From the NCBI GenBank assembly GCA_021828185.1, contig JAKASI010000015.1:1-23022 (forward strand): DNA of 23,022 nucleotides, in the 5' to 3' direction. The position numbers and the translations under genes are program-made. This stretch comes from an archaeon. GTDB lineage: Archaea; Thermoproteota; Nitrososphaeria; Nitrososphaerales; UBA183. A model generated the notes under the pieces. The model was given only the letters and a program-made list of their open reading frames with translations, was not told the origin of the DNA and searched no databases. This document shows positions 10,269-23,022 of this stretch, in pieces; position 1 is the first letter of the stretch, and every line of letters begins with the position of its first letter.

Positions 10269-10568
10269 TTAGCTGGTCGAGGAAGAAGTTCTGATCTCAC
10301 CGCGTGGGCGGCAAGCTAACTGGATTGGGCGCCCGACCTTGATGAGGGCGACAGCGGCTTCCTAAAAGGGCGAGACGTCTCGTTCAAGGGGACGGTTCTG
10401 AAGATTTCAAGGGTGTCAGCTTGGCTCGTGACAGGTGAAGGGTACGAATCTTGTGGGCTCTGGGTCGATGCCTGGACCGCCACGGCTGGATTCCGCGCCG
10501 ACAACACGGCCATAAGGGCCACGGCCGCGGGCGGGGAGAGGCAGGTCGGGAAGACAATCAGGGAAAAG
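10269..10568. other. Unassigned 300-base interval with an open but start-less frame
   Basis: No confident gene. On the plus strand a frame is open from 10320 and reads protein-like (for example SFKGTVLKISR, then GLWVDAWTAT), with an OB-fold-like alternation. Its first standard start is GTG 10413, and in frame it runs into the antisense of tRNA-Leu. The antisense strand has a 68-codon frame (10522 to 10316) of unremarkable composition with no promoter. It may be a decayed gene fragment. Confidence 0.3.
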
Positions 10569-10653
10569 TGCGGGGGGAGGGATTTGAACCCTCGAACCCC
10601 TAAGGGATGGGAGCCTCAGTCCCACGCCGTTGACCATGCTGGGCGACCCCCGC
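10569..10653 (-). tRNA. tRNA-Leu (anticodon GAG), no intron
   Basis: The reverse complement gives acceptor GCGGGGG/CCCCCGC with discriminator A, and anticodon stem TGGGA/TCCCA around CTGAGGC (anticodon GAG, reading CUC/CUU). A 14-base variable arm with a CCCTTAGGG hairpin marks a class II tRNA. The T-arm is GAGGG/CCCTC around TTCAAAT. An AT box lies 29 nt upstream. Confidence 0.95.
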
Positions 10654-20412: not shown

Positions 20413-21339
20413 GTGAGGGCCGCGGGCAGGCTTCCGAGGGGATACTCCAGGATCGGGGACGACGTCGCAGCCTTCCCTTCCAGATCAGGCAAGGTCGTAT
20501 TCAAGACGGACATGCTGGTCGAACGCACCGACGTGCCTGCAGGGATGACATACCGCCAGGCAGCTCGCAAAGTCGTGGCTATGTGCGTGAGCGACTTCGC
20601 TGCCAAGGGCGTCAGGCCGGACGCCTTCATGGTCTCGATTGGGCTGCGGAAGGGGGTGAGCCGGAGGGAGGTCGAAGAACTGTCGGTCGGCCTGCAGGAC
20701 GCTGAAAAGCGGTGGGGCGTTCATCTTGTCGGAGGGGACACGAACGAGTCCGATGAGCTCGTAATCGACTGCGCCATGGTTGGTTTCGCCGACAGGGTAG
20801 TCACGCGGGACGGCGCAGCCCCGGGGGACGTCTTGGTGGTGAGCGGACCCTTTGGATATCCTCCTTCAGGCCTGAGGATTCTGACCTCGGGGGCGAAGGC
20901 TGGCCAGAAGCTCGGCCGGAGAGCGACGAGGAGCGTCCTCGAGCCCAACCCCAACCTTGAGGCCGGCCTCGCGCTGGCGCCATTCCTCACTTCGTCCATG
21001 GACTCGAGTGACGGCCTGGCCAGGAGCGTCCACACGCTTGCGAGGGAGAGTGGGGTGGGGTTTGAGATCACCAGACTCCCAGTGGGGGAAGGGGTCGAGA
21101 GTTTTGCGTCAGCAAACAGCCTGGACGCCGAGAGGCTCGTCCTCGAAGGGGGTGAGGAGTATGTCATCGTTGGGACTGTCAGGAAGTCGAAACTTCAGAA
21201 GGCGTCGGCGGCGGCGAAGAAGGCTGGAGGCAAGTTGATTGTGATCGGGTCAGCCAACGGAAGAAAGGGGAGGGTCGTGCTGAGGACGGATGATGCGGTC
21301 AGGCCGCTCAGGGACGAAGGATGGCTGCACCTACGCTGA
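20413..21339 (+). CDS. thiL: Thiamine-monophosphate kinase-like protein (ThiL)
   Basis: This 308-residue protein is annotated from GTG 20413. It has the PurM-like layout: YSRIGDDVAAF (nucleotide/Mg loop), KTDMLVERTDVPAGMTYRQA, AMCVSDFAAKG, VGGDTNESDELV, VSGPFGYPPSG, SSMDSSDGL and EGGEEYVIVG, in the ThiL order. It would phosphorylate thiamine monophosphate to the diphosphate cofactor with ATP. The start is doubtful: the frame is open from 20371 and the codons before 20413 read TPDELEVISSI, which looks like the family's first helix, but no ATG, GTG or TTG lies there. It overlaps the convergent phosphohexomutase gene by 9 nt. Confidence 0.85.
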   Translation: MRAAGRLPRGYSRIGDDVAAFPSRSGKVVFKTDMLVERTDVPAGMTYRQAARKVVAMCVSDFAAKGVRPDAFMVSIGLRKGVSRREVEELSVGLQDAEKRWGVHLVGGDTNESDELVIDCAMVGFADRVVTRDGAAPGDVLVVSGPFGYPPSGLRILTSGAKAGQKLGRRATRSVLEPNPNLEAGLALAPFLTSSMDSSDGLARSVHTLARESGVGFEITRLPVGEGVESFASANSLDAERLVLEGGEEYVIVGTVRKSKLQKASAAAKKAGGKLIVIGSANGRKGRVVLRTDDAVRPLRDEGWLHLR

Positions 21340-22698
21340 AGCCGCCTTCACGAGTCTGGCGAACTTCTTGACCAGCTGGTCCGCTTCTTCCTGAGTCTCG
21401 GCTTCGGAGAAGATCCTGATTATGGGCTCTGTGCCGCTTGGTCTGACCAGCACCCAGGAGTGCTCCCCCGCCCAGACCTTCACTCCATCCACCTTCTCGA
21501 CCTTCCCCCCGGCCTTCCTCTCGACAGACCTCATCGCCGCCTCGACTTTCTTGGGGTTGACCTCCATCTTCGCCTTCGATTGGAAGTATCTGGGGACGAC
21601 GAAGGCCAACGCCTTGGAGAAGGACATGCCCCTGCTTGCAAGGCACTCGAGCATCAGCGCGGTGGTCATGCCCCCGTCCCTGACAGGAATGTGCGGCTGA
21701 AAGATGCAGCCCCCGTTCTCTTCGAATCCGAAGACCGCGTTCCTCTCGATTATCGTCCTGGATATCTCGACGGCGCCGACCTTCGTCCGGAGGACCTTGG
21801 CCCCATGCTTCTTGGCCACGGCTTCGATCGCCTGGCTGGAGGCGACCGAGGTGACGACTGTGCTCCCCTGATTCTTGTCCAGCACGAAGTCTGCCACGAG
21901 GCACCCGCTCTGGTCCCCCCAGAGTATCCTTCCGGTCTCATCGCAGAAAATCGACCTGTCGCCGTCCCCGTCGTAGGCTACCCCGAGGTCTGCCCCGACC
22001 GACCTCACCGCAGACGACAGATCCTTCAGGGTGTCAGGGGTGGGCTCGGGCCCCCTCCCTGGGAAGCTCCCGTCGACCACCGAGTTCAGGGTAATCAGCT
22101 TACACCCCAGGGACTCGACGATGTATGGAGCGGCCACCGACTGTGCGCCGTTTCCCAGATCCATGACCACGGTGAACTTCCTGTCGGCGACCGCCTTGGC
22201 GTCTACTTTGGAGAGGACGCCCTTCTGATAGGTCCTCACGACCGACCCGTCCTCGCGCGCGACCCCCACCGTTTTCCAGTCCGCCTTCGTCTGCGACCTG
22301 TCGAAGTAAATCTTCTCAATCCTCTGCTCGTCGAGGCGGGGGACCTCGACGCCGTCGGAGCCGGATACCTTGACCCCGTTGTAGTCCGCGGGGTTGTGCG
22401 AGGCGGTCACCATTACCCCTCCCCTGTACCCCAGGGTCTTCACCGCGTACTGGAGGGCAGGTGTGGGGACGACACCCCCTTCTGCAACGTCGCGCCCTGA
22501 GCTGAGCAGTCCCGAGATGGCCGCGTTCGTGACGGCGGGGCCGGACAGCCGGCCGTCCCTGCCTACGAGTATCTCACCGCCGCCGAAGTAGGTACCTATG
22601 GCCTCGCTGAGGCTGATGACAAAATCAAGGTCATGAGAGACGCCCGGGACGAACCTTACGCCGTTGGTCCCGAAGAGCCGCTGTTGTGATGCGGCCAA
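21331..22698 (-). CDS. Phosphohexomutase (GlmM/phosphomannomutase family), copy 2
   Basis: This 455-residue protein starts at TTG 22698, fixed by a box 27 nt upstream; a frame open to 22839 is not family-like. Motifs are LFGTNGVRF at 8-16, VTASHNPADYNG with phosphoserine S100, the metal loop DGDGDR (243-248), FEENGGCIFQ (sugar specificity loop), and RPSGTEPIIRI near the C-terminus. The EENGG form resembles archaeal phosphomannomutase/phosphoglucomutase, and the FGTNGVR opening resembles GlmM. It provides a sugar-1-phosphate for nucleotide-sugar synthesis, as needed by the glycan genes early in the window. It faces a second paralogue across ThiL. Exact substrate is not decidable. Confidence 0.9.
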   Translation of the reverse strand: MAASQQRLFGTNGVRFVPGVSHDLDFVISLSEAIGTYFGGGEILVGRDGRLSGPAVTNAAISGLLSSGRDVAEGGVVPTPALQYAVKTLGYRGGVMVTASHNPADYNGVKVSGSDGVEVPRLDEQRIEKIYFDRSQTKADWKTVGVAREDGSVVRTYQKGVLSKVDAKAVADRKFTVVMDLGNGAQSVAAPYIVESLGCKLITLNSVVDGSFPGRGPEPTPDTLKDLSSAVRSVGADLGVAYDGDGDRSIFCDETGRILWGDQSGCLVADFVLDKNQGSTVVTSVASSQAIEAVAKKHGAKVLRTKVGAVEISRTIIERNAVFGFEENGGCIFQPHIPVRDGGMTTALMLECLASRGMSFSKALAFVVPRYFQSKAKMEVNPKKVEAAMRSVERKAGGKVEKVDGVKVWAGEHSWVLVRPSGTEPIIRIFSEAETQEEADQLVKKFARLVKAASA

Positions 22699-22729: not shown

Positions 22730-22886
22730 CTTCCGATTCTCACTCTGGCCGCTATCGCAAAACACCACAGGGCTCGTTGTAAGGAGACACCGGTCATGGA
22801 CCTGCGAGTCGACTCGATTTGGATGCGTTGTGCAGCCATGGGCGAGACTCGTCGCCTCCCAGGTTGGGAGCTGAAGCAACAAACCG

Positions 22887-22894
22887 TTATAATA
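22887..22894 (+). promoter_or_regulatory. TATA box, tRNA-Arg
   Basis: TTATAATA is centred about 26 nt before the tRNA 5' end. The bases from 22730 to 22886 between the two promoters show no gene or clear structure. Confidence 0.65.
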
Positions 22895-22947
22895 CGACAT
22901 AGAAAATCTGGAAGTGGGCCCGTAGCGCAGTACGGATAGCGTGGCAG

Positions 22948-22961
22948 AGAAGCGCGCCAAT
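22948..22961 (+). other. tRNA-Arg intron 1 (14 nt), position 30/31
   Basis: Central helix: exon TGGC (22942-22945) with intronic GCCA (22956-22959). The bulges are AGA (22946-22948) and ATC (22960-22962), each cut after its second base. The inner part is only a 7-base loop closed by one possible G-C pair, so this is a relaxed bulge-helix form. Removal restores the anticodon stem. Confidence 0.85.
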
Positions 22962-22976
22962 CCTTCTAAGCTGTAG

Positions 22977-22994
22977 AGAGCGTGGCTCGCAGAG
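22977..22994 (+). other. tRNA-Arg intron 2 (18 nt), position 45/46
   Basis: Central helix: exon CTGT (22971-22974) with intronic GCAG (22989-22992). The bulges are AGA (22975-22977) and AGG (22993-22995), each cut after its second base. The inner stem is GAGC/GCTC with a 3-nt loop. Removal leaves the standard variable loop AGGTC. Confidence 0.87.
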
Positions 22995-23022
22995 GTCGTG
23001 GGTTCAAATCCCACCGGGCCCG

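Follow-up and report, generated by a model that had tools for sequence, protein, structure and literature searches.

Positions 22916-23022 of the window, the whole 23,022-nucleotide stretch of archaeal DNA that was analysed, are confirmed as a tRNA-Arg(UCU) gene with introns at positions 30/31 and 45/46. Judging from this sequence and those of its relatives, it is almost certainly a functional Nitrososphaerota gene whose precursor would carry two protein-spliced bulge-helix-bulge (BHB) introns. On the plus strand, exon 1 (22916-22947) encodes tRNA nucleotides 1-30 and includes the acceptor strand GGGCCCG, which pairs with the 3'-end CGGGCCC; it is followed by intron 1 (30/31; 22948-22961, 14 nt), a relaxed BHB, by exon 2 (22962-22976; nucleotides 31-45) with the anticodon TCT at 22965-22967, by intron 2 (45/46; 22977-22994, 18 nt), a BHB with a 4-bp inner stem, and by exon 3 (22995-23022; nucleotides 46-73), which carries the T arm, the 3' strand of the acceptor and the discriminator G. 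Excising both introns yields a 75-nt tRNA that ARAGORN calls tRNA-Arg(tct) over positions 1-75. The first-pass annotation had named a covariance-model fold that forms an intact tRNA with the introns in place as a refutation, and neither ARAGORN nor the Rfam covariance model at its gathering threshold detected a tRNA in unspliced 22916-23022; the only tRNAs that these programs find in the window are tRNA-Gln (1-74) and tRNA-Leu (10568-10653). A split or permuted tRNA gene was ruled out, all exons being collinear within 107 nt.

In both introns the predicted cuts lie within two 3-nt bulges that flank a 4-bp central helix. For intron 1, TGGC (22942-22945, plus strand; exon nucleotides 25-28, including T25) pairs at 4/4 positions with GCCA (22956-22959, plus strand), the bulges are AG↓A and AT↓C, and the inner stem amounts to one pair at most. 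For intron 2, CTGT (22971-22974, plus strand; exon nucleotides 40-43) likewise pairs at 4/4 positions with GCAG (22989-22992, plus strand), with bulges AG↓A and AG↓G and an inner stem of 4 pairs (GAGC/GCTC). Both motifs are classed as relaxed because the outer helix is a single pair in each, a point that counts against them. This sequence parse returned the same splice sites, intron lengths, helices and bulges as the first-pass annotation had given, and upheld its remark that intron 1 has almost no inner stem. Before splicing, exon nucleotides 25-28 would pair with intron 1 and nucleotides 40-43 with intron 2, and since both central helices borrow the strands of the anticodon stem, that stem would close only after excision. 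A heterotetrameric EndA would cleave after the second of the three nucleotides in each bulge, and the exons would be joined by RtcB into the 75-nt tRNA; for the precursor of the window, we infer both cleavage and ligation from the sequence.

When the letters of each intron were shuffled, a 4/4 central helix was reached in 2.4% (30/31) and 5.7% (45/46) of cases. Among the distinct exon/intron combinations of the window and its relatives, which are related sequences and not independent counts, the central helix is complete in 11/11 combinations at 30/31, in 18/20 at 45/46 and in 5/6 at 37/38. The first pair of the 30/31 helix is T25-A in the window and C25-G in all 10 other combinations, a compensatory difference, the third is G-C in 8 combinations and G-T in 3, and the fourth inner pair at 45/46 is C-G, T-A, G-C or T-G in 16/20. 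D-loop introns form four pairs in 3/19 combinations and three pairs, with G10 unpaired, in the other 16, so that of all four sites they depart furthest from the canonical form and have the most uncertain cut points. Energy folding was dropped as a proof of the BHB fold because it does not single this fold out: the minimum-energy structure of the precursor (-42.4 kcal/mol) is not the BHB fold (-37.3 kcal/mol), and the folding energy is unremarkable (z -1.65; 15/200 shuffles equally good). These figures are neutral or tell slightly against the BHB fold. Base 25 varies with the presence of the 30/31 intron, C25 occurring in 12 distinct genes with the intron and 4 without, and T25 in 1 with and 12 without; once relatedness is removed, 7 independent pairs remain (median p 0.06), and the association is no more than suggestive.

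The exon/intron boundaries are better settled by orthologues in which the sites are naturally empty than by folding. The divergent neighbour of the tRNA gene is glmM (21334-22689, minus strand), and a GlmM query retrieved 17 loci from the genome collection, 15 of them labelled archaeal (Thaumarchaeota, Nitrososphaerota, Nitrososphaerales or archaeon). The same tRNA gene is present at 15/17 loci, 14 of these 15 being labelled archaeal and the other (L017) being labelled bacterium; the two loci lacking it are L014, where the contig starts within glmM, and L016, whose glmM is bacterial. GlmM of the window is nearest to that of L001 (89-90% identity), and because of its relatives the host is taken to be a Nitrososphaerota archaeon. 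Orthologues were parsed by a script from 99 names, comprising the window and loci around glmM or the tRNA, with many genomes present twice; the script requires near-identical ends, so that divergent genes were left out, and no sequence that it picked up failed to parse. It yielded 29 distinct tRNA-Arg(UCU) genes with near-identical exons, all reducing to 75 nt, in nine intron states: D-loop and 45/46 (11 genes), 30/31 and 45/46 (5, the window among them), D-loop, 30/31 and 45/46 (4), all four sites, namely D-loop, 30/31, 37/38 and 45/46 (3), 37/38 alone (2), and one gene each with 45/46 alone, with D-loop, 30/31 and 37/38, with D-loop and 37/38, and with no intron. Six more distant genes adjoining glmM, read by eye, have the 37/38 intron alone.

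L001 carries a 45/46 intron identical to that of the window and nothing at 30/31, whereas L002 lacks both introns of the window. The 30/31 intron is missing at the exact point in L001, L002, L004, L008, L012, L013 and the intronless L091; the latter gene (G046; L091/L109) is 75 nt long and matches the plain Rfam tRNA model with 69.7 bits. Such orthologues, in which one intron or both are absent at precisely these points, are stronger evidence than that offered by the first-pass annotation. ARAGORN made no call for 23/29 distinct unspliced UCU forms. The shortest 30/31 intron among the parsed UCU genes, 12 nt long with a full central helix, is that of L092 (G132).

Splicing enzymes were sought in 11 relative genomes. 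PF01974 matched in 10/11, twice in G001, G002, G003, G009 and G010, once in G004, G005, G006, G007 and G011, and not at all in G008. The EndA-type proteins are of two kinds, both present in 5/11 relatives including the closest, G001; the presence of a single kind in 5 others and of none in G008 counts against the splicing model. Kind 1 is nearest to the catalytic subunit of Aeropyrum pernix (3p1z_B, E 1.2e-44); its active-site His falls on the position occupied by Ala in 3ajv, and one of its Lys residues on position 44 of the chain. Lys44 of the crenarchaeal-specific EndA loop is an important residue. Kind 2 is closest to 5x89 and 1a79 and has Pro where both have that His. Specific EndA loops are given a role in broad specificity in PMC12397907, and the EndA of Thaumarchaeota is described as alpha2beta2 in PMC4090602. 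We infer a heterotetrameric EndA, and likewise the make-up of the enzyme in the cell from which the window came. The suggestion of the first-pass annotation, that the gene belongs to a TACK lineage whose endonuclease has broad specificity, fits the recurrence of the gene at the glmM loci, the two EndA-type subunits of the relatives and the affinity of the catalytic one to Aeropyrum pernix. RtcB is encoded in 11/11 relatives. In G010 and G006 (L198:210-3299, L199:108-3101) it contains an intein (PF14890) after approximately profile position 49; the remaining 9 relatives have a continuous match over 1-426.

The states of the four sites were mapped onto a 34-row GlmM tree. Duplicates, short pieces and L017 (88 residues) had been removed beforehand, L143 (302 residues) stayed in, and for six rows the state (37/38 alone) was assigned by eye. 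The fewest changes needed are 5 for the D-loop, 9 for 30/31, 3 for 37/38 and 4 for 45/46, as against averages of 10.9, 10.0, 10.6 and 9.5 in 500 label shuffles. Only 30/31 is unclustered, 169/500 shuffles needing 9 changes or fewer, versus 0/500 for each of the other sites. Of the inner branches 16/31 are well supported, and a change count cannot separate gain from loss. We read the four sites in the UCU and CCU genes of this archaeal family as repeatedly filled and emptied, the window gene representing one such state.

It is possible, though less likely than not, that the 30/31 intron of the window gene was newly acquired, by recombination or through an integrating element as proposed for the tRNA-Thr of Caldiarchaeum, and not inherited from an ancestor and lost in sister lineages. 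The sisters L001, L002 and L013 lack this intron, the GlmM tree requires a minimum of 9 changes at the site (169/500 label shuffles do with as few or fewer), and the approximately 175 bases directly upstream of the gene (22741-22915) matched none of the relatives tested. On the other hand, the best match of the intron is the 30/31 intron of the UCU gene of L006, from a near clade (score 8; next 4), and not a CCU intron, which fits inheritance with several losses. Nothing in PHROG matched the upstream 47-codon ORF (22796-22936), which overruns into the tRNA and has, by eye, a ribosome-site-like AAGGAG, and viral contigs gave no match to two tRNA patterns. DNA 22730-22915 was also compared with 46 family genomes in a search run without a positive control (0/46 matched), and nothing significant was obtained in the gathered loci. 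The idea of the upstream stretch as an integrated element was set aside. A possible TATA box, TTATAATA (22887-22894, plus strand), was recognized by eye 21 nt before the tRNA and may serve as its promoter; in the four aligned relatives (L001, L002, L013 and L004) a promoter-like AAAGCTTATG stands in its place.

Two further explanations would deny that the window records a functional two-intron gene. The gene sits at the very end of its contig, and it could be argued that this end is chimaeric, the 30/31 and 45/46 introns not being combined in any one gene of the organism: the contig stops exactly at a tRNA 3' end, as does its other end, breaks of this kind would be typical where strains share a tRNA, and the last 61 bases are those of L001. 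We consider this very unlikely, since L017, L087, L090 and L093, four distinct orthologues away from the window, have the same pair of introns, T25 of the exon fits the A of the intron, and the gene is divergent to glmM as in the relatives. Still less credible is the idea that the gene is a pseudogene in decay, or what is left of a mobile-element attachment, with insertions that are never spliced. For it one may cite the unmatched bases upstream and the replacement in the window of the promoter-like GCAAAAGCTTATG that several relatives retain. Against it stand exons that are those of L001, L002 and L013 while the introns differ and their pairs change in step, the presence of a TATA-like box, and a UCU pattern found exactly once, with no spare copy, in each of the 28/46 family genomes matched, in a count that a copy of other sequence would escape. 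Both ends of the window (1 and 23022) are exact tRNA 3' ends; perhaps the assembly broke at tRNA genes that several strains have in common.

The isoacceptor tRNA-Arg(CCU) uses the same four sites (D-loop, 30/31, 37/38 and 45/46) with exons nearly identical to those of the UCU gene. Both were parsed across all loci gathered, including a few from outside the archaeal family, and assigned to UCU or CCU by exon pattern, which gave 59 distinct genes (31 UCU, 28 CCU) parsing to 75 nt. Four introns are present in 10/59 of them, 3 UCU (G007, G008 and G144) and 7 CCU; when spliced, 10/10 are called Arg, as compared with 0/10 unspliced. G036, G005 and G155 share one identical four-intron CCU gene, and G055 (L184) has a near-identical version of it. 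As G005 and G155 also have a second CCU gene, contamination of these two bins is possible. The CCU-like genes of L045 and L050 (G170 and G158) have C at exon position 33 instead of the near-universal U.

The UCU gene of L002 has the 37/38 intron only. Compared with 34 other 37/38 introns, four parser-missed CCU genes with such an intron being left out, it scores highest, with values from 8 to 4, against six introns that are all from CCU genes, and at score 3 two CCU introns tie with one UCU intron (L104); when it was shuffled, 0/2000 versions reached a score of 8 against the CCU set. A CCU-type intron in a UCU gene suggests an exchange between isoacceptor genes, and part of the likeness could come from shared helix needs. 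We therefore entertain, at somewhat less than an even chance, that introns pass between the UCU and CCU genes at their four common sites by gene conversion or anticodon change, building up to as many as four per precursor, and that the window gene arose in this way. The exchange signal itself is not extended to the window gene, since its 30/31 intron matches that of a UCU gene. The T arm GTGCG/CGCAC is found in 4/29 distinct UCU genes (L007, L017, L067 and L086), all with a 30/31 intron, and is common among CCU genes, again a hint of exchange. Some CCU 37/38 introns, by eye and not used as proof, mismatch C34 with an A that would fit U34.

Sites 30/31 and 45/46 are already among the archaeal intron sites listed in PMC4090602, so that the window gene is of a known type. 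Multiple-intron tRNA genes are on record for Thermoproteales (Sugahara 2008 and Fujishima 2010, as cited in PMC4033280 and PMC4090602); judged by these citing texts, their introns, like the present ones, are short BHB elements in both canonical and non-canonical positions, with several in one gene and similar ones across isodecoders. They differ in having three introns per gene at most in the reviews, versus four in 10/59 genes here, and in that the genes described here are from the phylum Nitrososphaerota. The tRNA-Thr(GGU) of Caldiarchaeum, as outlined in the section concerned of PMC3293823, has 24/25 and 45/46 introns plus a one-intron variant; the 45/46 intron and a second intron present or absent among close relatives are common to both cases, whereas no fragment gene or integrase was noticed beside the tRNA in the window, and four sites and two isoacceptors are concerned here. 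The tRNAscan-SE 2.0 paper (PMC8450103) models non-canonical introns of Thaumarchaeota and reports 107 of them, from the same phylum and of BHB form; it puts the upper limit at three introns in one archaeal tRNA gene, in contrast to four here. Three is the stated maximum in PMC8450103, PMC4033280 and PMC3293823, and no claim of four introns in one archaeal tRNA appeared among the titles and abstracts listed by searches of a mainly open-access library. The four-intron genes of the relatives thus look like a new extreme of a known type.

How tRNA introns are gained is an unsettled question, and the mechanism of their transposition is still unknown according to the review passage in PMC4090602. 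Here one gene near the same neighbour has anything from zero to four introns and a paralogue uses the same four sites, so that a tree can show where introns were gained, lost or exchanged; if the exchange reading is true, intron gain and loss could be read directly from sister genomes. The tRNA sets of such archaea may look incomplete because simple tools miss interrupted genes. The plain tRNA model matched 23 times in G001, 29 in G010 and 27 in G021, which bear introns, versus 41 times in G046, in genomes listed with no completeness values, and these lower counts suggest that other tRNAs may be interrupted too. In G046 both Arg genes are intronless.
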